Source: Thiothrix fructosivorans (GTDB lineage: Bacteria > Pseudomonadota > Gammaproteobacteria > Thiotrichales > Thiotrichaceae). From it: 64,000 nucleotides of DNA. The stretch spans positions 372,001 to 436,000 of the forward strand of contig NZ_JAFMPM010000008.1 in assembly GCF_017349355.1 (NCBI RefSeq), in the 5' to 3' direction. Made by a program: the position numbers and the translations under genes. Of the stretch, positions 14,070 through 31,558 are shown one piece after another (position 1 is the first letter of the stretch; each line of letters starts with the position of its first letter). The notes under the pieces were generated by a model that saw nothing but the letters and a program-made list of their open reading frames with translations, was not told the DNA's origin and searched no databases.

Positions 14070-14561
14070 ATGGATAATGGAAATTCACAGGTATTACAAC
14101 AAGTTAAAGATACCTGCCAAGAGTTTTGCGCCGCACTGACGGACAATGAAATTGCAAAATTTGTCGCCTTCACGCGTATCCGTGAATTGGGTTCACAGGA
14201 AATTGTGGCGGATATTGGCGAAATCAGTGATCGCTTTTATTTGGTGATTGGTGGTGCGGTGAAGTTACTGCATGTTGATGGCGAACGCGAATTTGAAGTA
14301 GGGAACGTTGATCCGGGCGGCTTGGTGGGTGAAATGTCCTTTTTTGACCGTCAGCCCCGCACGGTGCGGTTACGAGCGCGGCGTAGCGGGGTACGTTTAT
14401 TGGAAATCAACCGTCAAATGTATAACCGTTTGCGTATTGCTGAGCCATACATTGCGACTAATCTGCTCGAATTTGTGGTACGCAGCTTGGATTACCTTGT
14501 CCGTCACCTGAGCGATGAAAATGCCAAGCTGCACAAGCAGGTGACGGGTTTGAAGTATTAA
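14070..14561 (+). CDS. Cyclic-nucleotide-binding domain protein without DNA-binding domain
   Basis: 163 residues. The cNMP beta-roll runs from about residue 25 to 135: VADIGEISDRFYLVIGGAV, then the GGLVGEMSFFDRQPRTVRLRA phosphate-binding cassette, in which the Glu and Arg that contact cAMP/cGMP are present. A short C-terminal helix follows. The Crp/Fnr helix-turn-helix is missing; the protein ends where the dimerisation helix would end. It could be a stand-alone nucleotide sensor acting through protein contacts. It is single-gene, with its own promoter. Confidence 0.85.
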   Translation: MDNGNSQVLQQVKDTCQEFCAALTDNEIAKFVAFTRIRELGSQEIVADIGEISDRFYLVIGGAVKLLHVDGEREFEVGNVDPGGLVGEMSFFDRQPRTVRLRARRSGVRLLEINRQMYNRLRIAEPYIATNLLEFVVRSLDYLVRHLSDENAKLHKQVTGLKY

Positions 14562-15604: not shown

Positions 15605-16306
15605 ATGCACAACCCCAGTTCCAATCATTTCGATATTAATAATGCGTTGTCGCAGGCGGTATGGCGGTTTAATTTCCGCCCAGATTCTTACCTGCATCCC
15701 AGTTGGTTAGCCACCATGCCGGATGGTCAAGTGATGCAAGCCTTGTTTGGACAAGTCCGTGGCGAAAGCCGCTTAGTGCAACACATGATGCAGCGGTTGG
15801 GTTTACATGACAGCGTATTTTTTGATTTCAGCAAGCCGATGTCACGGCTGGCACTGTGGCGCGGGCAGGAACTGGAGCAACTGATTCTCTACGTCGGTGC
15901 CGTGTTCCACTTTCAGGCATTACGGCGCATGGTGATCCGTGAAGAATTACTCAAAACCCAGCAAGTGTTGGGTGAGGATTTATACCGTTTCGTGCAACAG
16001 CGTGCGCCGTTGCTGACGCACAATGTGACGGCGGATATTACGTTTCCTGAAAACCTTGGTTTGCGTAAGCGCTTTGCTTTGGCGGGTATGTTGTGTTTGC
16101 GTGCGGCGTTTGCCGAATATCCCCCTGCTTTCTGGAAGCGCTTGGTCTACAAGCTGGAACGTGAGTTTTTCGTATTGTGGAAACGCTTCGCTAAAAGTGG
16201 GCAGGAAATGGATACCCAAGCGGCAGAATGCGCTGTGTTAGTACAAAAAGTAGCAATAGAAATTAAAATGGGGGTGAGTCGCGATGGCAAAATTCTTTTC
16301 AATTAA
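15605..16306 (+). CDS. sctK: T3SS sorting-platform component SctK (YscK/PscK-like)
   Basis: 233 residues, soluble and helical, rich in Trp/Arg/Phe, like YscK proteins, which link the SctQ pods to the membrane ring. The order sctK-sctL, with a 23-bp overlap, matches Yersinia yscK-yscL. Features are an N-terminal FNFRPDSYLHPSWL segment and a central ELEQLILYVGAVFH helix. The family is divergent, so the call relies largely on position. It is preceded by 217 bp without genes that must carry its promoter. Confidence 0.7.
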   Translation: MHNPSSNHFDINNALSQAVWRFNFRPDSYLHPSWLATMPDGQVMQALFGQVRGESRLVQHMMQRLGLHDSVFFDFSKPMSRLALWRGQELEQLILYVGAVFHFQALRRMVIREELLKTQQVLGEDLYRFVQQRAPLLTHNVTADITFPENLGLRKRFALAGMLCLRAAFAEYPPAFWKRLVYKLEREFFVLWKRFAKSGQEMDTQAAECAVLVQKVAIEIKMGVSRDGKILFN

Positions 16307-16901
16307 ACCCGTGGATGCGCAATTGCGTGCGGGTCAAAAAGTGCTGAAAGCCGAGGATTACGAGCAATTGGTCGCTTATGACCACATGGCAACGGAGCTT
16401 CAGAACCGTCACCGCCAACGGGAAGAAATTGTCTCGGTGGCGTTAGGGCGTTCCATCAAACGTGGCTTGGAACAAGGGCGTGAACGAGCTAATCAAGAAG
16501 CGGCTGAAATGATGACGTTGTTTACGGGGCGCGTCAACGATACCTTGATGGTGTTAGAGGGCGAGTTGGTGGAATTGGTGATAACTGCCGTGCGTAAAGT
16601 GATCTACAGTTTTGATCAAGAAGAGCGGGTGCGCAATGCGGTTCAGGCAGGGTTGGAGTTGGTGCGTGGCAGTCACAAGCTGATGGTACGCGTACACCCC
16701 AATATGCAGGCGGCGATTGCTGCGCAATTGGATGCCATTCCGCACCGTTTCACCAGTCTGGAAGTGGTCGGTGATGATCAGGTGTTTGCGGATGGCTGCA
16801 TTCTGGAATCCGATTTGGGGATCGTTAACGCAGGGTTGGATCAACAGCTTCAGGTTATTGAACAGGCTCTTCGCGGGACTTTTGTGCGTCCTGGACTTTA
16901 A
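16284..16901 (+). CDS. sctL: T3SS ATPase stator SctL (HrpE/YscL/FliH family)
   Basis: 205 residues. The N-terminal half is a charged coiled coil (LQNRHRQREE... EQGRERANQE), and the C-terminal half has the FliH/V-ATPase-E-like fold ending in the DGCILESDLGIVNAGLDQQL signature. It holds the SctN ATPase and connects it to SctQ in the cytosolic sorting platform. Its start lies inside sctK. Its last 47 bp overlap the convergent sctO gene. Confidence 0.88.
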   Translation: MAKFFSIKPVDAQLRAGQKVLKAEDYEQLVAYDHMATELQNRHRQREEIVSVALGRSIKRGLEQGRERANQEAAEMMTLFTGRVNDTLMVLEGELVELVITAVRKVIYSFDQEERVRNAVQAGLELVRGSHKLMVRVHPNMQAAIAAQLDAIPHRFTSLEVVGDDQVFADGCILESDLGIVNAGLDQQLQVIEQALRGTFVRPGL

Positions 16902-17277
16902 TGATTTCCTTGAGCTTTTCCAGTTTCAAATTGGCATCACTGGAGTTTTTTTGGGCTGCGTGAACTTGTGCTTCAGCAGCCTGCAAGCCTTTGTGCGCTT
17001 CCAGTAGTTCTGCCCGCAAGCGTTCTTCTTCCAGCCGTAATTCTTCTAGGTTTTTCTGGTAATCGAAGAGCATTTGCGGTGCAAACGGTTGATTTTTCAG
17101 GCTCGCAAACAGTGCTTCCTGATGTTCCAGCCGCCATTGACCAAACGCTAGCAGTTGTTGTTCCTTTTGCTGAATACCGCGTTGCTGTTCCTGAAATAGG
17201 CGGCGTTGTTCTTGTAATTCCACAAAACGTTGTTCCATGCGGCGGGTGCGGATGGTTTTTAATTGATCCAGACTCAT
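16855..17277 (-). CDS. sctO: T3SS stalk protein SctO (YscO/FliJ-like)
   Basis: 140 residues, almost entirely one long helical hairpin rich in Glu, Gln, Arg and Leu. This is the composition and length of YscO/FliJ proteins, which act as the rotor-like stalk in the SctN hexamer and escort chaperones. It sits 16 bp downstream of sctN, the normal N-O order. No SctP follows it; the next gene is the convergent sctL, whose 3' end overlaps by 47 bp. Confidence 0.85.
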   Translation of the reverse strand: MSLDQLKTIRTRRMEQRFVELQEQRRLFQEQQRGIQQKEQQLLAFGQWRLEHQEALFASLKNQPFAPQMLFDYQKNLEELRLEEERLRAELLEAHKGLQAAEAQVHAAQKNSSDANLKLEKLKEIIKVQDAQKSREEPVQ

Positions 17278-17293
17278 GGTGTTAATCTCATTT

Positions 17294-18628
17294 CTATCCT
17301 GCCAGTTGCGTCAACCAGTGAATGGTGTCGTTGAAACTGGAATATTCGTGGGAAGGTTGTTTCAGAAAGCGCTGAATTTCATCCATTTTACGAATGGATT
17401 CGTCCGCTAACGGGTCAGAGCCGTGTTTGTATTCACCCACCCGCAGCAAAAATTCGATTTCTTTGTATTTGGCTAGTAGGCTACGCAGGTGTGCGGCGGC
17501 AGCGCGGTGTTGCGGGCTAACCAATTGCGGCATGATTCGGCTTAAACTGGCGAGTACGTCGATGGCGGGGTAGTGATTGGCGGAAGCTAAATCCCGCGAC
17601 AGCATAATGTGCCCATCCAACAAGGAGCGCACTTCGTCCGCAATTGGGTCACTCATGTCATCGCCTTCCACCAGCACGGTGTAAAATGCGGTGATAGAGC
17701 CTTTATCAGAATTACCGGCGCGTTCTACCAGTTTCGGCAATTCTGAAAAAACCGAGGGCGGGAAGCCGCGTCGTGCCGGAGCTTCGCCAGCCGCCAGCCC
17801 GATTTCACGTTGCGCACGGGCAAAACGTGTCAATGAATCCATCAGCAGTAGCACACGATTGCCTTTGTCGCGGAAGTATTCGGCAACAGCGGTGGCGACA
17901 TAAGCGGCTTTAAGACGTTCAATGGCGGGGCGGTCGGAAGTGGCAACGATCAGCACGGTTTTTTGCATTCCCGCTTCACCGAGGGCTTCTTCCATGAATT
18001 CCCGCACTTCGCGTCCACGCTCACCAATCAGCGCCACCACGTAGACATCGACTTCAGCGTGTTGCACCAACATGCTAAGCAGGGAACTTTTGCCGACACC
18101 TGCACCGGCAAACACGCCGATACGTTGCCCGATACCGCACGTAATGAGCGCATCCATTGAGCGAATCCCCAGCGACAAGGGGGTGCTAACGCGGTCGCGT
18201 GACAGCGGGTCGGGGGGCGTTGCGTAGATGGGGTAGTATTCAGTGAAAATGGGCATGGCGCGGTGTGGGTTTTCCTGTACGCGCCCGATGCCATCCAATA
18301 CGCAGCCGCGCAGGTGCTCGCCTACGCCGACTTCCAGCATTTTGCCCGTGGTAATCACTTGGGTGTGCGCGGAGACACCCTGCATATCGCCAATGGGAGC
18401 GAGCAGGGCGATGTTTTGCTCAAAACCGATGACTTCGGCGGGAATTTCGCGGTCGTCGCCCGTATTTTTCAGCATACACAATTCGCCGAGTTTCACGCGC
18501 GGCACAATGGCACGCACGACTGTGCCCGTGACTTGTACAATACGCCCATGCAAAACCAGCGTAGAACACGCCTCTAAACTATTACGCATCCGGTTGGTGA
18601 TGTGGCTTAAGGGGGTACGCGGTCTCAT
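17294..18628 (-). CDS. sctN: T3SS ATPase SctN
   Basis: 444 residues. Walker A is GAGVGKSS (175-182), Walker B is [11 protein letters not shown], and the family signature [17 protein letters not shown] follows. It is an F1-beta-like hexameric ATPase that unfolds and unloads substrates from chaperones at the export gate. The N-terminal ring domain begins about residue 25. Its start overlaps the end of sctV by 4 bp. All catalytic elements appear intact, so the exporter is expected to be energised. Confidence 0.97.
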
Positions 18629-20670
18629 GTCAGGCGAATCTCCCCAATGGGGCTAAGGGATACACTGGAGGTTAGTTCTTGCACTGAAATCACGGGTAGA
18701 TCGGGGTAGCTGTTTTCCAGATGCCGCCGGATGTGGCGACGTAATTCCAAATTGGTGAGAATCACGGGACGTACTTTGTTTTTGCTGTGCTCATTTTCTA
18801 ATTCGCGCAAGGTATTGGCAAAGCGTTCGGTTGCGTCCGGCGCTAGCGCGAAGAACACGCCATTCGGCGTTTGGCGCAGGCTGTTTTGCAGCAGTTTTTC
18901 GGTTTCCGGTGCAAACATATACACAGGGAGTATGCCCGTGCCGTTGGTGGCGGTGTAAGAAAGCTGGCGTTTTAGGCTGATACGCACCCGTTCGGCTAAC
19001 ATGCTAGTGTCTTTTTCGGATTCGCCAAATTCTACCAATGTGCCCAAGATTTGGCGTAAATCGCGAATCGACACGCCTTCATTGAGTAAGCGCCGGAAGA
19101 CATCTACGGTTTTTGGGGTGGTCACGGCACGTTGCACTTCGCGCACCAGTTCGGCGTAGCTGGATTGTTCCAACTTACTGTAAAGGGTGTGAATTTCTTG
19201 AATACCGATGAATTCGGCGGCATGTTTGCGCAGAATATAAGCCAGATGCAGGCTGATGGCTTGGATGTTATCGGTAGCAGGGCGTGTGCCGCCCGTGACC
19301 ATTTCATTGCCCGCCTTATCAACGGGCAGTTTGAGGGCTTCTGCTCCGACGCTGATGGGGGAGGCTGCTTGCAAATGCCCTTGTGCAACCGGTACGCCTC
19401 GGATGGACACTTGGTAGTTGTCGTTACTGAGTTGCGCCGATAGTTTCAGGCTAATGCCGGGTAACGGCACGCCCATGTCTTGGTAAAATTCCTTACGGAT
19501 ACGCATAAAGTCTAGGTTTAATGCATCCAGCGAGAACAGGGTTTTGGCTTGCATCGGCAATTCCACCAAAGCGGGGGAGAGCGGCTGCATGTCCTCCAAG
19601 GCGGCTTTGATGTCGCCACCCCCGCTGCCCAATTGTGCTGCGTCATGTTGCCCGATGACTGTGGTGATTTCTGCGTCGGAAAATTCCATTTGGTTTTGCA
19701 CTTTGCGCAATGCCATGCCAGTGATGCCCAGCATGACCCCCAGAAACAAGAACACCATCGTGGGGAAGCCCGGAATGAGTCCCATCCCGGTGACAATGGC
19801 GGCTGCGCCCAATAATGCGCTGGGTTGCGCTAACATTTGCCCGCCGATGTCACTACCTAAGTTGGCTTCTTCTTCGCCACGCACGCGGGTCACGATAATA
19901 CCGGCGGTGATGGAGATGAACAGTGCAGGTATTTGTGATACCAAGCCGTCACCGATGGTGAGGATGGAATACAGTTGCACGGCATCGCCCATCGTCATGC
20001 CGCGCTGCATCGTACCTATTGCCATACCGCCGATGATATTGACCATAATAATGATCAAGCCTGCAATCGCATCGCCTTTAACAAATTTCATCGCGCCATC
20101 GAGTGCGCCGTAGAGTTGGCTTTCTTTTTCCAGATTGGAACGCCGATGCCGTGCATCTGCCAATGTGATTAAGCCCGCCCGCATGTCGCTGTCGATACTC
20201 ATTTGTTTACCGGGCATGGCATCTAATGAGAAGCGTGCGCTGACTTCCGCAATTCGTTCCGAACCCTTGGTGATGACGATGAATTGCACAATCGTAATGA
20301 TCAAAAATACGACCAAGCCGACGACTAAGTTGCCGCCGACTACGAATTCGCCGAAGGTTTGCACGATATGTCCCGCGTCACCTTCCAGCAAAATCAAGCG
20401 CGTGGTCGCAATGCCGAGGGATAAGCGAAACAGGGTGGTGAGCAGTAAGATGGATGGAAAAGATGAAATGGCCAAGGGATGTGAGATGTAAATTCCCAAC
20501 ATCATCAATAAGATAGCAATGCTCATATTGAGGGCAATCAGCATATCCATGACCAGTGTGGGCATGGGTAAAATCATCATAGCAATGATGGCAACTAACA
20601 ATAATGCCAGCGCGACATCGCTGCGCCGTGTCAGCGACTGTAAGAGGTTTTGTGATTGGCTGGACTGCAT
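18625..20670 (-). CDS. sctV: T3SS export gate protein SctV (FlhA family)
   Basis: 681 residues. About eight membrane helices occupy residues 15-320, with the FHIPEP region at [20 protein letters not shown] between them. The cytoplasmic domain of about 340 residues forms the nonameric ring that receives chaperone-substrate complexes. It is followed by sctN with a 4-bp overlap and preceded, after 28 bp, by an NfeD-like gene in place of the usual SctX/SctY or SctW genes. Confidence 0.97.
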
Positions 20671-20698: not shown

Positions 20699-21235
20699 TT
20701 ATGTCGCTTGGCTTAGGGGCGTTATGTGTAAAGTCCGGTCATTGATGGCAACGACTTTGGCTTGCGTACCGGCAGGGCAATCGCTTCCCGCTAATTGCCA
20801 CTCCAAATTATCTAAGCGAATTGTGCCGACACCATCCACTATCGGTTGTTCTAACGTAATGACTTGCCCGATAAGCTGTTTGCCGGGATATTCGGTAAAG
20901 ACGCGTTTGATCGCCTTAAGCAGATCCGCAAGCAACGGTGCGAACAATACGCCGACAATCACCAGCAGAAATTGCCAGCGCCACACCCCATCGGGATTGA
21001 GCAGCATCAATAGACCCGTCAGACCTGTGCCGATGCCTAACCATGTTTCCCAGCCGGACTTAAAGCGTTGTTGGTATTGTTTGACCAACCCACTTTTGGT
21101 TTTGAGATTTTGCGTGGTGCGGAAGACGGCGTAATGGGTCTGCGCTCGTACATTGGTGCGCCTGAATTCTGCCCACCCGTGTTTGATGCGCTGCATCAGT
21201 GTCATTGCTTGTTTTTCTTGTTCCATGTGCTTCAC
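20699..21235 (-). CDS. NfeD-like membrane protein within the T3SS operon
   Basis: 178 residues from a GTG at 21235 that overlaps the sctU stop (GTGA). After a basic N-terminus (~55 residues) come two hydrophobic segments (about 62-78 and 85-105). A C-terminal ~65-residue beta domain with the NfeD-type OB-fold pattern follows (GKQLIGQVITL ... GTIRLDNLEWQL ... GTQAKVVAIND). NfeD proteins associate with membrane proteases and stomatins. Nothing equivalent is part of the canonical T3SS. Its tight coupling to sctU suggests a role in assembly of, or a membrane scaffold for, the export gate (inference). It could be an unrelated OB-fold protein. Confidence 0.7.
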   Translation of the reverse strand: MKHMEQEKQAMTLMQRIKHGWAEFRRTNVRAQTHYAVFRTTQNLKTKSGLVKQYQQRFKSGWETWLGIGTGLTGLLMLLNPDGVWRWQFLLVIVGVLFAPLLADLLKAIKRVFTEYPGKQLIGQVITLEQPIVDGVGTIRLDNLEWQLAGSDCPAGTQAKVVAINDRTLHITPLSQAT

Positions 21236-22290
21236 TGTTTGACTTGACCCTGCGTTTGACGCAGCAGGGTGGCAACTTTATTGATGGTTTTTTCGGGTAT
21301 GTATTGGTCTATTTTGCCTTCACTGAGTAAGTCATCAACCAGTATGGGGTCACTTACTACGGGGACAGTTTCCACGGTGGCAATATCCACCATTTTTCGT
21401 GCCATATTGCCCTTGCCAATTGCCACGATGATCGGGAGTGGGGTAACACCTGCTTCGTATTGCAACGCAATCGCTATACCCATGTCGAGGATAAGCAGCC
21501 GAGCGGTGCGGATACGCTTCTGGATGTCTTGTTCCGACATCTCACGGCGGATACCTTGGCGTGCGGCACGGACGTGGGGATCGCCGAAAATATCCTTCAT
21601 TTCATTTTTGACCTCTTCCTTGGTCATGCGCTGATCTTTGGTGAATTGCTGGCGTTGGAATAAAAAGTCCATCACCGCCATTACGATTAAGATGGGTACA
21701 ATAAAGAGCATGAGTTGCTTGGTGAGGTGCTCAATCACGGTTTTTTGGCAGACAACATCGCATTGTTGAATCGGATGCAGCAGTTCACGGATGCCGATGC
21801 GTATCACGATTAATAAAACAGCCGCCACGATCAATGTTTTGAGTAATGCCAGTAGGGTGGTGACGAATTGTTTGGCGGAAAAAATCCGTTTAAACCCACT
21901 GGAAAGGCTGATTTTTTCGGGGCGTGGAATGATGGGATCAAACGAAAAAATAAACCCGAATTGGACAATATTACCCAAAATACCTGCAATCACCGTGAGC
22001 ATGGCGAAAGGGATGGCGATACCGTATAGAGCACCTTCCAGCATGGTTTTGAAACCGACTTCAATGGCTTGCGGGAATGGCATGGTGTATAGCTTGGGCA
22101 CAATATCGAACATTTCCATGAATTGGGCGACAATCCAATCCCAAGCCAGAAAGAAATATAAAAGGGTAAATAGCAGGGTGAGCGCAGCAGCAAAGTCGTT
22201 ACTGCGGGCAATTTGACCTTTTTCGCGGGCTTTTTTAAGTTTCCGCGCACTGGGTTCTTCAGTTTTTTCTTGGCTGCTATCCCCACTCAT
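21232..22290 (-). CDS. sctU: T3SS export switch protein SctU lacking the NPTH autocleavage motif
   Basis: 352 residues. The N-terminal 200 residues carry four membrane segments, after the family start pattern DSSQEKTEEPSARKLKKARE. The linker TKEEVKNEMKD is normal. At the position of the invariant NPTH loop (268-271) the protein reads LDMG, while the flanking strands (TARLLI before, IAIALQYE after) are conserved. Without the Asn-Pro bond the domain should not self-cleave, the event that normally enables the switch from early to late substrates. The nucleotide sequence is clean there, so it is not a frameshift. It overlaps sctT by 4 bp. Confidence 0.93.
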   Translation of the reverse strand: MSGDSSQEKTEEPSARKLKKAREKGQIARSNDFAAALTLLFTLLYFFLAWDWIVAQFMEMFDIVPKLYTMPFPQAIEVGFKTMLEGALYGIAIPFAMLTVIAGILGNIVQFGFIFSFDPIIPRPEKISLSSGFKRIFSAKQFVTTLLALLKTLIVAAVLLIVIRIGIRELLHPIQQCDVVCQKTVIEHLTKQLMLFIVPILIVMAVMDFLFQRQQFTKDQRMTKEEVKNEMKDIFGDPHVRAARQGIRREMSEQDIQKRIRTARLLILDMGIAIALQYEAGVTPLPIIVAIGKGNMARKMVDIATVETVPVVSDPILVDDLLSEGKIDQYIPEKTINKVATLLRQTQGQVKQ

Positions 22291-23069
22291 CGCAGTAGTG
22301 CATCCAATAATGGTAGGTTATTGCCCATCCTGAAAAAACCATCTTTCAGGTATTCTGCCAAGAACCCCACATAGAGGGTGAGCATAAAAAACACGATCCC
22401 ACTTTTTACAGGCATGGCTGCCAGAAATACGTTTAACTGGGGCAGAAAACGCCCAACCATGCCGAGTCCGAAGTCCACCAAAAACATTACACCAATAAAG
22501 GGACCGGCGATGAGTAAGGCGGTGTACAACAAGAGATCCAGTTGGTGCAGAAAAAACGTGGTGACTTCTAACGTAATGTGCGGGTAGAACTGGTCAATTG
22601 GCCACGTTTGGTAACTGACGTACAAGGTTTGCAGCAACATCATGAAGCCACCCGACACGAGCAACAATGTTGTCAAAAATAAGCTAAATAACCCGCCTAA
22701 CGGGGATACCATGCTGGCAGTAATCGGGGAAAAGGTCAGGGCGCTCATTACGCCGCGCTGCATGTCAATCAAAAAACCCGCTGCTTTCACTGCCCAAAAC
22801 GGTACGCTGAGCACATAGCCTAAGAACAAACCCAGAAGCCCTTCTTTGACCAAAATGCCCAGCATTCCCATGACATTCAGCTCAATATTGAGGAATTGTT
22901 CATGCGTCAATGGCAAAATGAACAAGGTCATGATCATGACAATGCCGTTACGCAGCGTGCGCGGCACAATCGGGTCGGTCAGAATGGGGAGTACTGCAAA
23001 CGCCACCAAGACACGCGGAGAAGTCAGCGCCCAAGCTAATAACCACGAATGGAGGGCATCGGTTTCCAT
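22287..23069 (-). CDS. sctT: T3SS export gate protein SctT
   Basis: 260 residues from the ATG at 23069, which overlaps the sctS stop (TAATG). A longer open frame to 23141 would overlap sctS by 72 bp and is unlikely. The protein is nearly all hydrophobic, with six to seven membrane segments and the GFLIDMQRG segment typical of SpaR/YscT/FliR. It is part of the SctR5-S4-T1 helical export gate. Confidence 0.93.
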   Translation of the reverse strand: METDALHSWLLAWALTSPRVLVAFAVLPILTDPIVPRTLRNGIVMIMTLFILPLTHEQFLNIELNVMGMLGILVKEGLLGLFLGYVLSVPFWAVKAAGFLIDMQRGVMSALTFSPITASMVSPLGGLFSLFLTTLLLVSGGFMMLLQTLYVSYQTWPIDQFYPHITLEVTTFFLHQLDLLLYTALLIAGPFIGVMFLVDFGLGMVGRFLPQLNVFLAAMPVKSGIVFFMLTLYVGFLAEYLKDGFFRMGNNLPLLDALLR

Positions 23070-23341
23070 TAACGGTGGCGTATCAACGCAATCTGATCGA
23101 AAGCGTTTTCGGTAAAGCTGAGGAGTTCCGGGCCTAACCAACGTACTGTGACCGCTAGCGCCACCATGGTGACGACCAGTTTGAAACCGTGCGGTAAGGT
23201 TTGTTCCTGAATCGAGGTGAGGGCTTGCAATAAACCGATCAATAGCCCCACCACTGTGGCAGCAATAATGGCAGGCAGCGATAAATACAAAATGAGTTGC
23301 ATCGCGAGAGACGTATTGTGGATGATGTCGGTTTCATTCAT
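23069..23341 (-). CDS. sctS: T3SS export gate protein SctS
   Basis: 90 residues with two membrane hairpin helices and the SpaQ/FliQ pattern (VGLLIGLLQALTSIQEQTL). Four copies wrap the SctR-SctT core. The gene is separated by 4 bp from sctR and overlaps sctT by one base. Confidence 0.95.
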   Translation of the reverse strand: MNETDIIHNTSLAMQLILYLSLPAIIAATVVGLLIGLLQALTSIQEQTLPHGFKLVVTMVALAVTVRWLGPELLSFTENAFDQIALIRHR

Positions 23342-23345
23342 AGCG

Positions 23346-23999
23346 TCAGTAACTCAAGATCAAGCCGTGGATTAAGCGCGACCAGCCATCCACCAGCACA
23401 AACAGCAACAGCTTGAAGGGCAGAGAAATAGTCATGGGGGAAAGCATCATCATACCCATTGACATCAATAGGTTAGAAATTACCAAGTCAATAACGACGA
23501 AGGGCAAAAAGATCAGGAAACCAACCTGAAATGCCGTCGTGAGTTCACTGACCATAAACGAGGGAATCAGCACCAGTAAGTGATCGTTGGTGATTTCTTG
23601 GGAATATTTTTCAGGCCAGAGCTTTTTGGTGGTTTGGGTGAAAAATTCGCGCTCGCTATCACTGGAATGCTTGCTCAAGAACTGTTTGAGCGGATCGGTA
23701 CTGCCTTCTAACGCCTCCATCAGTAAGGGATTGCGAATATCCTCGATGGAAACCCCGTGGGTATTGAATTGTTCATAGGTTTGCATGGCAACCGGCGCCA
23801 TGATGTAAATGGATAAAATAATCGCGATACCACTGATCGCAAGGTTGGGCGGTTCTTGCTGCAAGCCCAAGGCGCTGCGGATAATGTGCATCACAATCAC
23901 GAGTTTGACAAATGAACTCACCATGATGGCAATGAACGGCGCTAACCCCAGAATCGTGAGGACAGCCAGCAGTATAATGGGATTAGGCATCGACTCCAT
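23346..23999 (-). CDS. sctR: T3SS export gate protein SctR
   Basis: 217 residues, the normal length. It has an N-terminal signal-like helix, SFVKLVIVMHIIRSALGLQQ-type YscR/FliP signature, a periplasmic-facing loop, and a C-terminal block of hydrophobic helices (DLVISNLLMSMGMMMLSP). A second ATG four codons in (MPNPII) is an equally possible start. It follows sctQ by 2 bp. Confidence 0.96.
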   Translation of the reverse strand: MESMPNPIILLAVLTILGLAPFIAIMVSSFVKLVIVMHIIRSALGLQQEPPNLAISGIAIILSIYIMAPVAMQTYEQFNTHGVSIEDIRNPLLMEALEGSTDPLKQFLSKHSSDSEREFFTQTTKKLWPEKYSQEITNDHLLVLIPSFMVSELTTAFQVGFLIFLPFVVIDLVISNLLMSMGMMMLSPMTISLPFKLLLFVLVDGWSRLIHGLILSY

Positions 24000-24001: not shown

Positions 24002-25060
24002 TTAACTGCCTTTTGCTTTTTTATTGAATAAGTTAAGGATGCGCACACCCACGCGCCCATTGATTTCCACCAGTTCACCTGTACCGATCAGGCGCTGTTG
24101 GGAGCGTATTTGAATGATTTCTGGCAGCGATTTGCCCAGTTCGAGCACATAGCCGGGTCGTAATTGGCGCACTTCATTGAACGATAAGGTTTTTTCCCCT
24201 ACATCAAATGAGAGTTGTACGGGGATTTGGCTAATATGGTCTATGTTTTGTTTTTGTTCATTATCGGTCATGGTCATCCACTCAGTGTTAATGGTGAGAG
24301 TTGTGGGCTGGGTTGGATTTAGGCTGGCTTCGCAGTAATAGCCGGAATTTAGGCGTAATTTGAGTAAGCCTTCTGTTTCAAAGCGGGTATCGTCTAGCAG
24401 GATCAAATCCGCAGGGTTTAATTGGTTGATTTCCTGCATGGTGAAAACGACGCGGCTGATTTCCAGCCAGAGTGGGGTGTGGTGTTCTTCCCAATCCGGG
24501 TTATTGTCCGACGGCCAATGGCGTAGGCGTTCTTGGATATGCAGGTAAAGATGCGGGTCTAGCATGAGCAAGGCGGTGATGGTCTGCTGGATACTTTCGT
24601 CTTCCCGATTGACGATCTGCAAATCAAAACCAAACGGCATATTATACACCGGACTGTGTGTTTCCGCCGCCGTCGCTTGCACGGTTACTTTTAGACCCAA
24701 CGCCAGTTCGGCTTGCTGTAATAAGGGGGCGAGCGCACTTTCAATGATGCTGATCGCTAGGTTTTCTGGCAATTGCGCCAATAGACCATCCGGTACAAAG
24801 TGACGAATGTGCTCCGGCATTGGCCATTCTGAGAGCCATAATCCTGCCGTCGTATTGCCTAATTCTAACGTTAAGCTGATCGGGCAGTTTACCTGCATAC
24901 TGCTATCGGTTGGCCGCATACGGAAGCGCACGAAGTGCTGTTCCCCTGCTGCGAAACTGAAGATGTCGGTTTTATTTAATAGAAGATTGTTCAGACGTAC
25001 ATTAATGGCTGCCTGAATGGGAAATTTGATCGGGGTAGACTCAATCTGCCGGTTTTCCAT
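24002..25060 (-). CDS. sctQ: T3SS sorting platform protein SctQ (SpaO/YscQ/FliN-like)
   Basis: 352 residues. The C-terminal ~75 residues are a clear SPOA domain: VQLSFDVGEKTLSFNEVRQL, then GYVLELGK and GELVEINGRVGVRI. The N-terminal two thirds are the divergent part found in YscQ. SctQ forms the cytosolic pods that recruit SctL-SctN. It is the first gene of the minus-strand block Q-R-S-T-U. The 127 bp upstream to the next gene have no ORF. An internal start for a short C-terminal SctQ product, common in the family, is possible but no strong site was seen. Confidence 0.88.
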   Translation of the reverse strand: MENRQIESTPIKFPIQAAINVRLNNLLLNKTDIFSFAAGEQHFVRFRMRPTDSSMQVNCPISLTLELGNTTAGLWLSEWPMPEHIRHFVPDGLLAQLPENLAISIIESALAPLLQQAELALGLKVTVQATAAETHSPVYNMPFGFDLQIVNREDESIQQTITALLMLDPHLYLHIQERLRHWPSDNNPDWEEHHTPLWLEISRVVFTMQEINQLNPADLILLDDTRFETEGLLKLRLNSGYYCEASLNPTQPTTLTINTEWMTMTDNEQKQNIDHISQIPVQLSFDVGEKTLSFNEVRQLRPGYVLELGKSLPEIIQIRSQQRLIGTGELVEINGRVGVRILNLFNKKAKGS

Positions 25061-25195: not shown

Positions 25196-26188
25196 TCAGA
25201 CTGAACGGTGTGTGTCCCAGCTTTGCAGGCGATCAAGATTCGGGTTGGCATTGACTGCACCCAAGTAATAGCCTTGGAAGGTGTCTTGCGGCAGCCAGTT
25301 GTTTTCACCAAAATTGACATTGACGTCGCCAATATTGGTGCTCCAAAAGTGGTATGAGCCATCATCATTCCGCCCAAGGTAAATGGCATTCCAGCCTTGT
25401 GACGCGGAGGTATTGTCACCCGGTAAGTCGAAGTAATAGGCAGAACCGGGTTTTAAAGCATCTCCTTTAGTGGGATCAAACAAGGCGGTTTCACCTTTGA
25501 GATTGCTGACCCCATTGACGGCAAATTCACCGCTTTGTGTGGTTGTGCGTACTGTGGTGCTGAAGCCGCCATCAAAACCGGAGCTATCATCTTTGTCATA
25601 CCACGATGACACTTGCAAACGTCCCGCGTGGCTATCGAAATCATCTATGCCGATGGTCTCGAGCGTGGCTTTTAAATTGAGCAAGCGCATGGGGCTGGCA
25701 CAGTCAAACGCGTAATCTTGACGGTTATTGAAGACATCGTTGATGGCATCGGAGGGTTTGACGGGTTGACCGGCATTATCGGTTTCACGCATCAGCAAAT
25801 AGCGGTTAGCGCCGCGTTGCACGACTTCCCAAAGATTATTGCGTTCCAAAACGGTTTCCGTAGCGGCTTGACCGTTAATGCTGGTGTAGCTGCGGGTTTT
25901 CGGTTGGGTGAGTTCGCCATTATTAATGTGCACCAAGTCTTCACTGAATGCCCAGCCTGCGCCCAAGTTGTTCGCCGTTTTTACCATGTTTTCACGGAAA
26001 CGCAGGTCATAATCGTTAGGGGTAGCGGGTTGGATCAGTTGCTGCATTATTTTTTGGAGCAGGCTGGTCATACTGGGTTGCGCGGCAAATCCCGGCAAGC
26101 TCAAGGACTCTGTGCTGCTTGTTTTTGTCTGCGGTTGTGCTTGTGTTTGCGCACTGAGTTGTGCAGGTGAAACGGCAATAGTGGGCAT
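25196..26188 (-). CDS. Tgl-type transglutaminase-like protein, candidate T3SS effector
   Basis: 330 residues from ATG 26188, chosen for AGGAGG seven bases upstream. The first ~40 residues are Ser/Thr/Gln/Ala-rich and disordered, like a T3SS secretion signal. The rest follows Bacillus Tgl: a KPSDAIND segment, then YAFDCASPMRLL with the presumed catalytic Cys163, an LETIG helix, and PGSAYYF ... GWNAIYLG followed by a His (about 280) in DGSYHFWSTNIG. Tgl enzymes crosslink or deamidate glutamine side chains. Located between the sctQ and sctC blocks and divergent from sctC, it is probably a secreted substrate. Homology and secretion are both inferred from pattern and position. Confidence 0.72.
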   Translation of the reverse strand: MPTIAVSPAQLSAQTQAQPQTKTSSTESLSLPGFAAQPSMTSLLQKIMQQLIQPATPNDYDLRFRENMVKTANNLGAGWAFSEDLVHINNGELTQPKTRSYTSINGQAATETVLERNNLWEVVQRGANRYLLMRETDNAGQPVKPSDAINDVFNNRQDYAFDCASPMRLLNLKATLETIGIDDFDSHAGRLQVSSWYDKDDSSGFDGGFSTTVRTTTQSGEFAVNGVSNLKGETALFDPTKGDALKPGSAYYFDLPGDNTSASQGWNAIYLGRNDDGSYHFWSTNIGDVNVNFGENNWLPQDTFQGYYLGAVNANPNLDRLQSWDTHRSV

Positions 26189-26419
26189 CCTGAATCCTCC
26201 TGATGCACGACATGACAATACGTAGTAAATAATGTAAGCCTTTATCGACTAAAGCGCTGGGATGCGCTGGGATGAAAGGGGGCGTTTTGCAGATAATCCG
26301 TCCAGAGATTGACGGTGCTTTTCCATTGGGTAGGGTTTCTTCTACGTTTGTCCTTCAAATGATGAATGTCTTGGTGCATAAGCATAAATTAAGGTGGTTT
26401 ATATCTGCCGGGGGATGAC

Positions 26420-27103
26420 TTGGCTATGCACCACACATTATTTAGGTTTCGATGGGCAACGTTGCTAGCGCTGTTGTTCAGTTGCACGGTGACGGCAGCC
26501 CCGTTGTCTTGGAATGACGATAAGTATTCACATTTTTCTGACGAAGAGCCTCTGGCTGAGTTATTGAAAACATTGGCATCATTACAGGATTTGCCTGTGG
26601 TGGTAAGCCCTAAGGTCAAGGATGTGGTGAGCCTGCACGTGCAGGATAAAAAGCCACAGGAAATCTTCAATGAACTGGTGAAAAATTACGGTCTAATTTG
26701 GTATTACGATAAGGAATCCTTATTCGTTTACAAGGAAGAAGAAGTGCAAACCGCTTCCATTAGCATGAAAAAAATGTCGCCACAGGAGTTCACCAATGCA
26801 CTGCAACGCCTTCAGGTGTTGGAAGAACGGTTTCAATGGCAAATTTCTGAAGTCGATAACATCATTTATTTGACTGGCCCTGAGCGGTTTGTCAGTGCGG
26901 TATTGGACATGGCGAAAGTGATGGATACCCAAGATTTGGCGCGGCGGCAGGTATACCGCTGGAAAGACAAAGAGGGGGTGGTGAACTTCAGCTCTGAAGA
27001 TCCCGTGGGTGGCTTGGGTGCGCAGTGGGATGTCAAGACTGATGAAAAATTTCCGGGCTTCGATGTTGTCAATGTTGTTAAAAACAAAAAACAGGTCGAA
27101 TAA
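26420..27103 (+). CDS. sctC: SctC-like protein with N0/N1 domains only, no secretin barrel
   Basis: 227 residues; T3SS secretins have 500-700. A signal peptide ends near AA (residue 25). Residues ~35-105 match the N0 domain of YscC (LAELLKTLASLQDLPVVVSP, GLIWYYDKESLFVYK), and ~108-168 match the following ring-building domain (FTNALQRLQ... NIIYLTGPERFV). The secretin beta-barrel and S-domain are absent. Instead a short tail follows whose residues 176-192 (VYRWKDKEGVVNFSSED) look like a DUF4124 motif. The gene ends 0 bp before sctD, so it is not cut by a visible frameshift. The protein may dock on SctD without making an outer-membrane pore. Confidence 0.85.
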   Translation: MAMHHTLFRFRWATLLALLFSCTVTAAPLSWNDDKYSHFSDEEPLAELLKTLASLQDLPVVVSPKVKDVVSLHVQDKKPQEIFNELVKNYGLIWYYDKESLFVYKEEEVQTASISMKKMSPQEFTNALQRLQVLEERFQWQISEVDNIIYLTGPERFVSAVLDMAKVMDTQDLARRQVYRWKDKEGVVNFSSEDPVGGLGAQWDVKTDEKFPGFDVVNVVKNKKQVE

Positions 27104-28477
27104 ATGACAATTCAACAAACCTCTTTTGTTCTTAAGGTTCTCAGTGGGATCAATGCTGGTGCAGCGGTTCGCTTAAGAACAGGTAGTTTAGTGATTGGTC
27201 GTTCGATGACCAGTGACATCATTTTGCACGACGATAATATTGCTGATCAGCACGTTCAGTTACTGATTACCCCCAGTAGTATTACCCTCCAGCCGTTGGC
27301 TCACCCCATTTTCGTAAATGGGATGGAGGTCACGGCGGAGAGTGTGGAATTAGCCCCTTATCAGGCGGTCAAGCTAGGTAACGTCGAGTTTTGGGTGGCG
27401 GATAGTCGAGTAGCAGCGCCGCAAGCCAAGGCAAAGCCAGCATCGACCAGTACGCCTAAACGCCCCGCATCCGCTGAAGCGCCCTCGGCAGTAGCCGCCA
27501 AAGCGCCACTCGCCGCTAGCAACAAGGTGACGGCGAAGCAACGTATGGGCAGTAAGACATGGCTAGCGTTGGGCTTAGGCTTATTGTTGCTTGCCAACGT
27601 GGTTTATTGGGCACCGCAGATGAATTTCTTGCTGCAACACTTGGGTGTGCAGGATTCCGCCGAGCAGCAGGCCGCGAACTTGATGCAAACCTTGGGTAAG
27701 CAAGATTTTAAACTTGTCAATGAACCCGATGGCTCTGTCAGTTTGAGCGGTTATACCAGTACGGTAGCGGAGCGCAATGATCTCATGAGCCGTATTCAGA
27801 GCGCGGGTCTTAAGGCGAATCTGCATATCTGGTCGCAGGATGAAATGGCAGAAAGCGCGGGTACGATTGCGCGGGCGATGGGACAGCCTAGCCTACGTTT
27901 CAAGTCAGGTGATACGCATGGTGTGTTGGTTGCACAAGGTTTCGTGAGCAAAACGGCTGATTGGGAGCGTGTCAAGGCGAGTATCCTCAACGATGTTGGT
28001 GGTATCCGTTCCATTGAGGAAAGCGATTTCCAGACGCTGGACGGTTATTTGGCGGCGTTTGTGCAGTTCATCGAGAAAAAAGGGCTTTCCAGCCGTATCA
28101 ACGCTACGACTGACGGTAAGAGCGTTATAGTTAGCGGCGAGTTAACTCAGCCAGAGATCGAAAAATTAAAAGGTTTACGGCAAGCGTTCATCGACATTCA
28201 AGGGGATGGCCCTGCTATTGTGCTGAATGTGACGGATGTACGGGATCGTATCAAGCTGGCGATACGCAGCGTTAGCGTTGGCAAAGTACCGTTTTTGGTC
28301 GCGAAAGATGGCAAGAAATACATGGAAGGTTCTTCACTGGGTGAAAAATACTTTGTGAAGTCAATCAAGTCTGACCATGTGGTGTTAACCAATAATGGAA
28401 TAGATATTCCTTTTTATTACGGTATAGACAAGGGGAGAAAAAATGATGCTGCAAATAGAGCAGAACCTCAGAAATGA
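27104..28477 (+). CDS. sctD: T3SS inner-membrane ring protein SctD
   Basis: 457 residues. An N-terminal FHA-like cytoplasmic domain (residues 5-100, with GSLVIGRSMTSDIIL) is followed by an Ala/Pro/Lys-rich linker (105-148) and one membrane helix (151-170). The periplasmic part has repeated ring-building modules. SctD forms the outer ring of the inner-membrane base and contacts SctC N-domains and SctK. It starts directly after the sctC-like stop, and its 3' end overlaps the next small gene by 35 bp. Confidence 0.92.
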   Translation: MTIQQTSFVLKVLSGINAGAAVRLRTGSLVIGRSMTSDIILHDDNIADQHVQLLITPSSITLQPLAHPIFVNGMEVTAESVELAPYQAVKLGNVEFWVADSRVAAPQAKAKPASTSTPKRPASAEAPSAVAAKAPLAASNKVTAKQRMGSKTWLALGLGLLLLANVVYWAPQMNFLLQHLGVQDSAEQQAANLMQTLGKQDFKLVNEPDGSVSLSGYTSTVAERNDLMSRIQSAGLKANLHIWSQDEMAESAGTIARAMGQPSLRFKSGDTHGVLVAQGFVSKTADWERVKASILNDVGGIRSIEESDFQTLDGYLAAFVQFIEKKGLSSRINATTDGKSVIVSGELTQPEIEKLKGLRQAFIDIQGDGPAIVLNVTDVRDRIKLAIRSVSVGKVPFLVAKDGKKYMEGSSLGEKYFVKSIKSDHVVLTNNGIDIPFYYGIDKGRKNDAANRAEPQK

Positions 28478-28658
28478 TGTATCTGGAATGTATAAAAATG
28501 AGCTTCTGGATAAATTTAACCAAGCAGCATCGGAAGTTCGTTCCGAGTTGAATCAAGGGGTCTCCCCTGATGAGTACGATAAGTTGAATCGGTTTTTACA
28601 GGCATTGGACGCCAGTTGCGAGGTAGTTGAAGAGTTTTGGTCGCAAACCCATCAATAG
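28443..28658 (+). CDS. T3SS needle co-chaperone SctE-type (YscE/SsaE-like)
   Basis: 71 residues, fully helical and acidic (NELLDKFNQAASEVRSEL ... SPDEYDKLNRFLQALDASCE). Length and two-helix pattern fit YscE, PscE and SsaE, which pair with YscG-type TPR proteins to keep the needle subunit monomeric. GGGGAG lies ahead of the start inside the end of sctD. The order E-F-G downstream of sctD matches Yersinia. Sequence similarity in this family is low, so position carries weight. Confidence 0.7.
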   Translation: MMLQIEQNLRNDVSGMYKNELLDKFNQAASEVRSELNQGVSPDEYDKLNRFLQALDASCEVVEEFWSQTHQ

Positions 28659-28778: not shown

Positions 28779-28967
28779 ATGGCAGATATTTCAGGCGCAG
28801 CCGCCACCGTTGCACAAACTATTACTGACAGTGCAAACGCCCAAGTCACCATTAACAGTGCAGCTACACAAGCTGAAGTTCTGACTATGAACTCTAAAGC
28901 TGACTTAGCTGCTGTCCAAGGTGTGAGTGGTGCGTTAGACGCAGCAGCGCAAGCAGTGCAGAGGTAA
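28779..28967 (+). CDS. sctF: Putative T3SS needle subunit SctF-like protein (atypical)
   Basis: 62 residues, preceded by TAGGAG eight bases upstream. The composition is striking: Ala, Ser, Thr, Val, Gln and no aromatic residue, no Cys, no Pro. It is predicted to be mostly alpha-helical (AEVLTMNSKADLAAVQGVSG, LDAAAQAVQ). It sits where yscF lies between yscE and yscG. Canonical needles are ~80 residues with a PSDP-type turn, which is absent here. Alternatives are a minor inner-rod or a different small polymerising subunit. Confidence 0.5.
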   Translation: MADISGAAATVAQTITDSANAQVTINSAATQAEVLTMNSKADLAAVQGVSGALDAAAQAVQR

Positions 28968-29044: not shown

Positions 29045-29065
29045 ATATAAATATAAGGAGTGAAT

Positions 29066-29431
29066 ATGAACCCTGATGTCGAATTACTAAGAATAATGTC
29101 TCAAGTTGGGTATTTAACTTGCTTTAGAAGTGATGCAAAACGTTCTCAACTGATTATGGATGGTGTTAGTGCTATTGGTCGTGAACAGATTCCGATTAAG
29201 ATTGGTGTTGCAGTGGCTGATCTCTATGCCGGACGATATGACCAAGCCATTAGCATATTACGTGATCAAATTTTGGTTGAAGACCCGAATCACATGAGTG
29301 CAAAGTGCTTTTTGGGTATTGCCCTGACACAAAAGGGCAAGAAAAGTGACGCCAAAGAATTATTTGAAGAAGTCGCTGTGCATGGCAATCAAGATGAAAA
29401 AATTATTGCTGTTGCCTACTTGAATAATTAG
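29066..29431 (+). CDS. T3SS TPR chaperone SctG-type (YscG/SsaH-like)
   Basis: 121 residues from ATG 29066, with TAAGGAG five bases upstream. It contains about two tetratricopeptide repeats (VAVADLYAGRYDQAISILRD and AKCFLGIALTQKGKKSDAKELF). YscG-type proteins grip the C-terminal helix of the needle subunit together with the E-type partner. The E-F-G gene order supports this role. Confidence 0.75.
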   Translation: MNPDVELLRIMSQVGYLTCFRSDAKRSQLIMDGVSAIGREQIPIKIGVAVADLYAGRYDQAISILRDQILVEDPNHMSAKCFLGIALTQKGKKSDAKELFEEVAVHGNQDEKIIAVAYLNN

Positions 29432-29440: not shown

Positions 29441-29986
29441 ATGATTGATGCAAGTGTTTTGGTCAACCCTGTGAGTGCAGGTGGTTTGGGGCAGCAGCAA
29501 TTGCCAGCACCTCAAGCTCAAGATGTAAAGCGTTTTGAAGATGCCTTGACGCAAGTTGATACAGGTGCAAATGCCTCGCAATCGCCCGTTTTGAGCATCA
29601 TTGAACCAAGAAGAGATGAGTCGCTTGGGGGATTCAAACAAGCGATTTTGGATAAGGTTCAAGTCATGGACGATTCTTACCATAAAGTCTTGTCTGAGTA
29701 CCACGAGATGCCTAATTGGCGGGATAATGTAAAGCTAGACACTAGCAATAATACTGGTGATCAAATGAGAAGTTATCCTGAGGTACAAAATGCTAGGGGA
29801 TCATCCGACCAGATGGATAATGCAGCACAAAGTGTTGCCGATAATATTTTGTCTGCGGCGGCACAGCAGAATAAAATCTACGAGTGGGGAACGAAGATGG
29901 AAATGTGGTTTAGCCACATGAAAATTATTTCCGCAGCGGTTGGGCAAGTATCTCAAGGCTTCAAAACACTCTTTCAAGCAGGTTAA
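29441..29986 (+). CDS. sctI: T3SS inner rod/adaptor protein SctI-like
   Basis: 181 residues, longer than usual (about 100-140). The C-terminal ~35 residues have the amphipathic SctI pattern (MEMWFSHMKIISAAVGQVSQGFKTLF), which packs on the SctR/T gate. The N-terminal part is Gln/Ala-rich and probably disordered. GGAAG precedes the ATG. It lies between sctG and sctJ, as in Yersinia G-H-I-J with H missing. Confidence 0.75.
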   Translation: MIDASVLVNPVSAGGLGQQQLPAPQAQDVKRFEDALTQVDTGANASQSPVLSIIEPRRDESLGGFKQAILDKVQVMDDSYHKVLSEYHEMPNWRDNVKLDTSNNTGDQMRSYPEVQNARGSSDQMDNAAQSVADNILSAAAQQNKIYEWGTKMEMWFSHMKIISAAVGQVSQGFKTLFQAG

Positions 29987-30027
29987 TGGCGCTCACCCCT
30001 TAACGCTTGCGACAAGATGAGAAAACA

Positions 30028-30630
30028 ATGACAACGATAAGTAAGAAATTTCTCCCATTGACTGCCATAGCACTTCTGGTTTTACTGACCGGCTGTAAAA
30101 CAGAGCTGTATAGTAATTTAGCTGAGAATGATGCGAATGCGATGTTGTCTATTTTGTTGAATAACAAAGTGACCGCAGAGAAAACGTTTGATAAAAAGGC
30201 AGCCACTTACTTCTTGCACGTTGAAGAGTCTCAAATTCCGCAAGCGGTGCAGCTTCTCAAAGAACAGGGTTATCCTAAAGAGAAAATCGCAACCGTCGGC
30301 GAGCTATTCAAGAAAGAAGGGTTGATCTCATCGCCCTTGGAAGAACGAGCGCGTTTCATTTTTGCACTCTCCCAAAGCGTGCAGGAAACCTTATCACAAA
30401 TCGACGGGGTACTTGTCGCCCGCGTGCATGTGGTGTTGCCTGAAAATAACCCGATTGATACCGAAATAAAACCCTCTTCCGCATCGGTCTTTATCAAATA
30501 CAACCCAGCTTTCCGTTTGGAAGACATGAAATCCGATATCAAGCTGATCGTGGAAAAAAGTATTGAAGGGTTAACTTACGATAAAGTGTCGGTTGTCATG
30601 GTGCCTGCACAATTCTCTGCCACGAATTAA
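30028..30630 (+). CDS. sctJ: T3SS inner-membrane ring lipoprotein SctJ (no C-terminal membrane helix)
   Basis: 200 residues from ATG 30028. A lipoprotein signal (LLVLLTGC) is followed by two ring-building motifs: ELYSNLAENDANAMLSILLNNKV and the second domain containing VARVHVVLPE and SASVFIKYNP. Family members normally continue into a membrane helix and reach ~240 residues; this one stops right after the second domain (VSVVMVPAQF). The lipid anchor remains. It is the last gene of the plus-strand block and ends 16 bp before the convergent acyltransferase gene, with an 8-bp inverted repeat between them (30639-30663). Confidence 0.92.
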   Translation: MTTISKKFLPLTAIALLVLLTGCKTELYSNLAENDANAMLSILLNNKVTAEKTFDKKAATYFLHVEESQIPQAVQLLKEQGYPKEKIATVGELFKKEGLISSPLEERARFIFALSQSVQETLSQIDGVLVARVHVVLPENNPIDTEIKPSSASVFIKYNPAFRLEDMKSDIKLIVEKSIEGLTYDKVSVVMVPAQFSATN

Positions 30631-30646: not shown

Positions 30647-31558
30647 TTAATAAACCGTTGCCGTGTCAGTGGGGCGGGTGCGGAATAACTTTAATACCCA
30701 CATATATTGTTCAGGGTGCTGTTGCAGTAACGTCTGCAAAGCATTGTTTAAAGCAATCGCATCCTGTGTTTCATCTTTGCTCGGATAGTTAGCTAAAGCC
30801 GCACCGATGACAATATCGTAGCCGCCGTGCTGTGGGTTGAAAAATGCCATAACGGGTAATGCTACGGCTTTTCCCAGTTTGGCAAGCCGTGCCGGTGTCG
30901 TTAGTGTGGCTTTGGAAACCCCACAAAATGGTGCAAACACGGAATGTTTGCTGCCATGATCTTCATCCGGTAGGAAAAACATGAGCCGTCCCGGTTCGAG
31001 TGCTCGTACCAGTTTCATCATGCCCTCTTCACGCGCCACCACGAATTCAACGTCTTGCAAACGGCTACGCGCAATCAGCCAATCGGCTACTGGATTGTGG
31101 AACGGTTTGTAAGAGCCATACGCACGGTAATGTGCGCCAATTGCCACGGGCGCGAATTCCAGCCACACCGAATGCCCTAGCATGAGGATGACGTTTTGTC
31201 CTGCTGCAATGGCTTGGTCAATATGTTCGCGCCCCATGAGGTGGGTGCGTTGCTGTAGCCAGCGGCGCGAACGAAAAAACAACACGCTGTAATCTAACAG
31301 GGCACTGGCATATTCCTGACAGTGGGCTTGCGCCATTGAGTCACGTTGCGTGTCATTCATCGTGGGGAAGCACAAGCGCAGGTTGGTTAACACCACCTGA
31401 CGGCGTTTACGGTTATGGTTGAAAATCCAATTGCCCAAGTGCTTGCCAAGCCAGCGTCGCGTTTGCCAGGGCAACCACGCCAATAGGGCGAACAAGCCGA
31501 TGCCTGCCCATGTCAGCCAGTATTGCGGCGCAAGTAAGGTGCGGGGGTAAGCGTTCAC
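30647..31558 (-). CDS. LpxL/LpxM-type lipid A acyltransferase, start replaced by an IS element
   Basis: 303 residues. After one membrane anchor (ALLAWLPW, ~residues 15-30) it has the acyltransferase motif GHSVWLEF (H-x4-E), VAREEGMMKLVRAL, and FFLPDEDHGSKHSVFAPFCG, as in HtrB/LpxL proteins that add a secondary acyl chain to lipid A. The present GTG at 31558 lies in the terminal repeat of an IS66-type element. The original GTG, at 33156 beyond the element, overlapped the CinA-like stop and encoded MTQPL before the shared PRTLLAP. The new start gives MNAY before the same sequence, so the protein is almost unchanged. Confidence 0.9.
   Translation of the reverse strand: MNAYPRTLLAPQYWLTWAGIGLFALLAWLPWQTRRWLGKHLGNWIFNHNRKRRQVVLTNLRLCFPTMNDTQRDSMAQAHCQEYASALLDYSVLFFRSRRWLQQRTHLMGREHIDQAIAAGQNVILMLGHSVWLEFAPVAIGAHYRAYGSYKPFHNPVADWLIARSRLQDVEFVVAREEGMMKLVRALEPGRLMFFLPDEDHGSKHSVFAPFCGVSKATLTTPARLAKLGKAVALPVMAFFNPQHGGYDIVIGAALANYPSKDETQDAIALNNALQTLLQQHPEQYMWVLKLFRTRPTDTATVY

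Follow-up and report, generated by a model that had tools for sequence, protein, structure and literature searches.

The Thiothrix lineage carries a non-flagellar type III secretion system (T3SS) whose secretin homologue, SctC, is reduced to a collar with a DUF4124-like tail and is not accompanied by a pore of its own. T3SSs and SctC proteins confined to the N0 and N1 domains are already known; the DUF4124-tailed collar without its own pore, present across a lineage, is new. The analysis started from a stretch of 64,000 nucleotides of Thiothrix fructosivorans (contig NZ_JAFMPM010000008.1, "the window"), whose genome assembly comprises 4.36 Mb in eight contigs and is 100% complete. Our tentative reading is that the collar would dock a secretin borrowed from another system. 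We lean this way by analogy with the rhizobial Rhc systems, with delivery into the periplasm close behind.

The window contains the core of a non-flagellar T3SS

The export and basal genes of a non-flagellar T3SS of the Sct type are present in the window (Table 1). On the plus strand, sctC is followed by sctD, sctE, a 62-aa open reading frame (ORF), sctG, a putative sctI and sctJ; the minus strand carries a transglutaminase-like gene, sctQ, R, S, T and U, an NfeD-like gene and sctV, N and O, while sctK and sctL are again on the plus strand. Curated cut-offs were passed by SctD, J, K, L, N, O, Q, R, S, T and V as well as, in Pfam, by sctE, and sctU and sctG were matched under theirs. The single SctV/FlhA-like match in the whole genome scores over the SctV cut-off and is the T3SS one; a flagellar export gate was not found in this genome.

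Table 1. Features of the T3SS locus and its surroundings, in window coordinates.
Feature	Position	Strand	Evidence
cNMP-binding protein	14070-14561	+	
trypsin-like protease with signal-peptide-like start	14587-15387	-	
sctK	15605..16306	+	PF06578 81.7 bits, over cut-off
sctL	16284..16901	+	TIGR02499 86.2 bits, over cut-off
sctO	16855..17277	-	PF07321 33.7 bits, over cut-off
sctN, ATPase	17294..18628	-	TIGR02546 626.8 bits, over cut-off
sctV	18625..20670	-	TIGR01399 782 bits, over cut-off
NfeD-like protein	20699-21235	-	
sctU	21232..22290	-	TIGR01404 272.9 bits, under cut-off 358
sctT	22287..23069	-	TIGR01401 213.4 bits, over cut-off
sctS	23069..23341	-	TIGR01403 92.8 bits, over cut-off
sctR	23346..23999	-	TIGR01102 264.8 bits, over cut-off
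sctQ	24002..25060	-	TIGR02551 108.7 bits, over cut-off
transglutaminase-like protein between sctQ and sctC	25196..26218	-	PF20085 5.4e-22
short sctC	26420..27103	+	signal peptide, N0, N1, DUF4124-like tail; barrel absent
DUF4124-like tail, where N3/barrel would begin	26942..27100	+	PF13511 at E ≤ 0.01 in 17/17 members
sctD (FHA, three BON-like domains, Y4YQ_C domain)	27104..28477	+	TIGR02500 144.3 bits, over cut-off; PF23893 2e-10
sctE, needle co-chaperone	28443..28658	+	PF08988 31.9 bits, over cut-off; TIGR02501 30.6 bits, under cut-off
62-aa variable helical ORF at sctF (needle) position	28779..28967	+	position
sctG-like TPR protein (needle chaperone)	29060..29431	+	CdsG 2.5e-6, under cut-off
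putative sctI (inner rod)	29441..29986	+	position and C-terminal pattern by eye; no Pfam/NCBIfam family match
sctJ lipoprotein	30007..30630	+	TIGR02544 228.5 bits, over cut-off; no C-terminal TM helix by hydropathy
IS66-family transposase	31555-33051	-	

The transglutaminase-like gene occurs at 18 of 46 partly redundant loci. Its product has a Ser/Thr/Gln-rich N-terminus, in which we did not see a hydrophobic signal stretch, and Cys173 is kept in at least 12 of 13 rows; we regard the protein as a candidate type III substrate. Thiofilum flexile has two such genes. SctJ, at 197–209 aa and spanning 30028-30630 in the window, is without a C-terminal TM helix in all eight family members examined. 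This is not special to systems with a short SctC, as a locus with full-length SctC (L131) also has SctJ without this helix. The NfeD-like gene lies between sctV and sctU and recurs at 27 of the 46 partly redundant loci; it is not known as a T3SS part. The protease and cNMP-binding protein genes are near sctK, and the transposase gene, just downstream of the locus, adjoins an acyltransferase-like gene (named by eye).

SctC is an N0–N1 collar with a different tail

The sctC ORF is an SctC cut down to signal peptide, N0 and N1, to which a different tail is joined. Read from its TTG it encodes 227 aa, but an ATG at 26426 (225 aa), followed by a signal-peptide-like stretch (by eye), is the likelier start. 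The N0 model T3S_SPI-1_N0 (PF21304) matches over its cut-off (7.3e-9; 36.2 bits versus 27), STN and Secretin_N (PF03958) match under theirs, and the Secretin barrel (PF00263) gives no Pfam match, which is the outcome of the profile check that the preliminary description had proposed. The NCBIfam model for SctC/YscC, TIGR02516, aligns only over model positions 2–142 of 463, with 110.6 bits under a curated cut-off of 238.45. A profile built from 17 short SctC members finds the solved N0–N1 structure of InvG at 2e-22, the match ending at position 172 of 225; at E ≤ 0.01, Pfam assigns N0 to all 17 members, Secretin_N to 10 and STN to four. The AlphaFold2 model of the window protein (mean pLDDT 81, pTM 0.64) predicts N0 and N1 well, and Foldseek retrieves N0–N1 of InvG, MxiD and EscC with it. 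The modelled N0–N1 superposes on that of MxiD and InvG at 1.9–2.3 Å, which supports the N1 domain although PF03958 itself stays under its cut-off.

The last ~50 residues resemble DUF4124. The match was present in each of the 17 members scanned, out of 25 sctC genes collected, with a best E-value of 1.2e-7; in the window protein it covers residues 174–192 and reaches 18.7 bits, under the cut-off of 22. The AlphaFold2 model places strands after residue 175 at pLDDT 63–77, less surely than N0 and N1. Alignment A1 comprises 21 of the 25 genes (L032, L033, L034 and L036 left out) and alignment A2 comprises 17, leaving out also L038 (ambiguous letters), L040 (doubtful start), L052 (cut by a contig end) and L053 (wrong start). 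The preliminary description had read the gene as signal peptide and N0/N1 only, with 227 residues: N0, N1 and the absence of the barrel stand, and the DUF4124-like tail had been overlooked. It had rightly placed sctD in frame and directly after sctC; sctD begins at the base after the sctC stop, which rules out a barrel hidden downstream in the window. In two relatives, G010 and G003, the frame stays open for 724 and 673 aa, but these were likewise rejected as long SctC proteins, the DNA having the sctC TAG and then sctD in frame.

The short sctC is a selected trait of the lineage

Of 57 genomes, counting that of the window, 25 yielded a short sctC. The genus accounts for 15 (of 16 genomes) and other members of the family for 10 (of 20), while the 21 genomes from outside the family gave none. 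All 24 relative loci fetched have it just before sctD, encoding from 179 aa (cut by the contig end) to 277 aa, so that an intact sctC in close relatives, which the preliminary description had named as a finding that would speak against its reading, was not encountered. Between the window and six relatives, sctC has pN of 0.07–0.17 versus pS of 0.6–1.0, in N0–N1 and tail alike and with dS often saturated; the gene is under purifying selection. Given this selection and the lineage-wide short sctC before sctD, we reject a recent truncation or an assembly error; the preliminary description, too, had thought that the gene does not look recently truncated. Of 36 family genomes, 27 have sctV, which is fragmented in G025 and G027, and 25 of the 27 have the short sctC. 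In the other two, G016 and G027, sctC was not found even at E ≤ 10, where only DUF4124-type stretches appeared, and the contigs with sctV, N and O have none; this may reflect gene loss or an assembly gap.

A scan of named genomes yielded 44 loci. The nearest 24 (L107–L130) have sctC frames that measure 220–306 aa between stops, without a secretin match in the stretch; 23 belong to Thiothrix, Thiolinea, Thiofilum, Cocleimonas, Leucothrix or Thiotrichaceae, including strains of T. caldifontis, T. lacustris, Thiolinea disciformis and Thiofilum flexile, and one is a "Proteobacteria bacterium". Thirteen of them sit on contigs already in the 57-genome set, and the two sets are thus not independent. 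The other 20, more distant loci served as a positive control for the same kind of search, 15 having a barrel in the sctC frame; two frames are broken and one runs off its contig, Phyllobacterium has a separate secretin and Aestuariispira has neither. In the latter (A. insulae, L136), the short SctC is a 231-aa frame accompanied by sctD and sctV, with no secretin within the stretch. Thiofilum flexile carries a second, broken sctC fragment of 70 residues with two stops (G017:C35:162314-162523, minus strand, in L046).

Among 369 genomes of the class, 13 matched the short SctC, three of them family members. Outside the family, G197 has the same DUF4124 architecture (18.9 bits, under cut-off) together with two secretins, GspD1- and PilQ-like. 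Two others have a short SctC without a DUF4124 match: G095, with two SctC2-like secretins elsewhere in its genome, and G229 (58% complete), in which an SctC2-like secretin was not found. G398 has a split SctC1/SctC2 pair in one locus, and the other six matches are short stretches.

These data also bear on the idea of a decaying, non-functional remnant, which we consider very improbable. Parts are indeed missing relative to injectisomes, one relative (G007) is without both sctC and sctV, and at one locus (L038) sctN and sctT are each split into several ORFs and sctE has no match, where sequencing error is possible. Against decay, gene content is similar across the other relative loci as far as contigs reach (several stop at contig ends), sctC is under purifying selection and most core proteins score over curated cut-offs.

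Secretins elsewhere in the genome are of other types

The T. fructosivorans genome has three PF00263 genes, which NCBIfam types, all over cut-off, as GspD (516 bits), GspD (488 bits) and PilQ (526 bits). TIGR02516 recovers only parts of these three and the short SctC, and nothing more up to E 10. The locus has no pore gene of its own, as initially proposed, and no secretin of the SctC type was found elsewhere in the genome, the finding that the preliminary description had set against itself. The two GspD genes differ: one (C8:891515, L058) lies by gspE-F-like genes and the other (C8:91905, L059) is lipoprotein-like and follows gspL-M-like genes, both by eye.

In seven further T3SS-positive family genomes, all 14 secretins resemble GspD1, GspD2 or PilQ, and the GspD1 and PilQ types are the most widespread in the T3SS-positive genomes typed. 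For the remaining T3SS-positive genomes the analysis gives numbers of secretins, with a closer look at the additional copies in G009, G012 and G030. Six T3SS-positive relatives assembled in a single contig (G003, G004, G005, G006, G008 and G015) have three PF00263 genes each by count, and none within 100 kb of sctC. A fourth, weaker secretin occurs in G002, G007, G009 and G012; the G009 and G012 copies, which match that of the T3SS-less G007, were rejected as T3SS partners. The fourth secretin of G030 is of another type.

That a T3SS secretin is in the genome and was missed, through an assembly gap or extreme divergence, is the least probable of all the explanations weighed here. The assembly is in eight contigs, and the sctV-positive genomes without sctC suggest that gaps may occur, but the six single-contig relatives argue otherwise and the same profile did find the split pair of G398.

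No single secretin was detected in every sctC-positive genome: none was seen in G025 (97% complete, 6% contamination, 360 contigs), GspD1 was the only one found in G022, and G031 showed PilQ and GspD2 without GspD1. T3SS-less relatives also carry PF00263 secretins.

The needle site and the missing translocator functions

In all 16 stretches read by eye, the sctF site between the sctE- and sctG-like genes is occupied by a short ORF, whose length ranges from 57 to about 83 aa. The window copy is 82–89% identical in two relatives and 8–24% in the others aligned. AlphaFold2 models it as a single helix (pLDDT 75, pTM 0.31), and nothing in Pfam, PDB or AlphaFold2 was decisive for needle identity. 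The needle model TIGR02105 scored over cut-off in 0 of 36 genomes and gave no match in the window's genome, in a search without a known-positive genome. In Yersinia, the relatives of the sctE- and sctG-like products hold the needle subunit. We infer that the sctF-site ORF may encode a fast-evolving filament subunit.

The gatekeeper SctW (PF07201) was found in 0 of 12 genomes. For the translocator chaperone (TIGR02552) none of the 12 has a match over cut-off, though each has weak ones of TPR type; the Hahella control was positive for both. With neither found over cut-off, contact-dependent translocation into eukaryotic cells seems an unlikely role for the system.

Relation to known secretion systems

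With the injectisomes of the InvG/MxiD/YscC kind the locus shares the N0–N1 fold, SctD, SctJ, export gate, ATPase and sorting platform; unlike them, it has no barrel and no needle-family match, and gatekeeper and translocator chaperone were not found over cut-off. Standalone N0–N1 proteins without a barrel also occur as RhcC1/NolW, which represents the N-terminal half of a secretin that is split in rhizobia, and as HrcII-C1 of the second T3SS of Pseudomonas syringae. RhcC1, as described in PMC3459982, is an N-terminal remnant proposed to link SctD to the Tad-type RhcC2. Whereas RhcC1/NolW consists of signal peptide and N0–N1 only, the Thiothrix-type SctC adds the DUF4124-like tail, which was not found in the split SctC1 of G398; and whereas Rhc has an RhcC2-type partner, the window's genome has no SctC2-like gene. 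The Rhc-III system of Rhizobium etli comes closer, in that PMC3574062 and PMC3973906 give it rhcC1 without rhcC2, like the Thiothrix-type system. The Myxococcus T3SS* resembles the present system as an inner-membrane machine whose locus has no secretin and which is maintained across a free-living bacterial lineage (PMC10433427, PMC3459982). According to PMC10433427, it takes part in killing prey, alongside a Tad-like system, and is without outer-membrane parts and needle; the Thiothrix-type locus, in contrast, retains an SctC collar and genes for needle co-chaperones.

Trees of SctV unite the seven DUF4124-type systems with support of 99/97 (26 rows) and 97/96 (24 rows, after dropping the long-branch rows G410_b and G406_b). 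Forcing them into one clade with the two Rhc references, Phyllobacterium and G398, was rejected (p-AU 0.024), consistent with their separate grouping, whereas one clade with all four other short-SctC rows was not (p-AU 0.32); the groups were named after the first SctV tree had been seen, and the trees had just four short-SctC references, two of them Rhc. A separate shortening of SctC is plausible.

Open-licence literature on Thiothrix, Thiotrichaceae and related names with type III secretion gave no report among the matches listed. Term searches found neither "secretion" nor "type III" in a comparative-genomics paper on Thiothrix (PMC8570282) and no "type III" in the genome paper on T. nivea (PMC3368414).

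Possible exit routes

The preliminary description had named the same three exits that are weighed here (into the periplasm, through a secretin encoded elsewhere, or by another way), without the RhcC1 precedent or the missing gatekeeper and translocator chaperone. If a secretin is borrowed, N0–N1 would form a ring stacked on the periplasmic C-terminus of SctD, which is conserved, and the DUF4124-like tail, at the site where the barrel would start, would act as an adaptor, as has been proposed for RhcC1, so that the secretin of another system would supply the outer-membrane passage. The exported material would be a small helical filament subunit (the sctF-site ORF, served by SctE and SctG) and perhaps the transglutaminase-like protein. 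The profile and structure matches to InvG point this way, as do the lineage-wide, selected sctC, with pN well below pS in both parts of the protein, the GspD- and PilQ-type secretins at hand, the positive controls (barrels in the distant loci, the split pair of G398) and the absence of gatekeeper and translocator chaperone matches. Precedents are the Rhc systems, with N0–N1 as a linker (PMC3459982), and TfpC, a DUF4124 protein which, according to PMC7593972, is needed to maintain type IV pili in Neisseria. On the other side, GspD1 and PilQ have likely jobs of their own in type II secretion and pili, secretins also occur in relatives without the T3SS, no single partner was detected throughout and no model identified a needle subunit.

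A periplasm-directed machine is possible, if less probable than a borrowed secretin. It would have given up the outer membrane and would send a short filament, an enzyme or both into the periplasm, with the N0–N1–DUF4124 ring as a cap. The lack of a dedicated secretin in the T. fructosivorans genome, the lack of gatekeeper and translocator chaperone matches over cut-off and the sctC-positive genome without a detected secretin (G025) agree with it. So do two accounts from PMC3459982, namely that a secretin-less SPI-1 system still sends its needle subunit to the periplasm and that the Myxococcus systems lack a secretin. The retained sctE- and sctG-like needle chaperone genes are harder to reconcile with it, and the variability of the sctF-site ORF would suit surface exposure, although relaxed constraint would look alike. 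Taken to its full extent, such a reading would mean that a whole gammaproteobacterial lineage has a working T3SS without an outer-membrane secretin, its DUF4124-capped collar ending in the periplasm and the machine building a filament or delivering enzymes there; this, too, is a possibility that we hold below secretin borrowing.

A dedicated outer-membrane protein other than a secretin, encoded elsewhere, seems an unlikely exit. Other pore folds are invisible to the secretin profile, but clustering of ORFs from the 46 partly redundant stretches (~10 kb on each side), which covers the locus and its surroundings, brought up no obvious candidate. The commonest unassigned clusters, at 29 and 25 of the 46 loci, resemble flanking housekeeping genes by eye, and the rarer ones include the sctF-site ORF and an STAS-like protein (12 of 46 each), an antisense frame and others.

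The secretin counts as a core part of the host-directed non-flagellar T3SS and, according to PMC3459982, was probably acquired on three or more separate occasions. In the Thiothrix-type lineage, which is free-living and partly cultured, the SctD-side collar has been kept with no pore of its own. This raises two testable questions: what role an N0–N1 collar has alone, and whether a T3SS can borrow the secretin of another system or stop at the periplasm.
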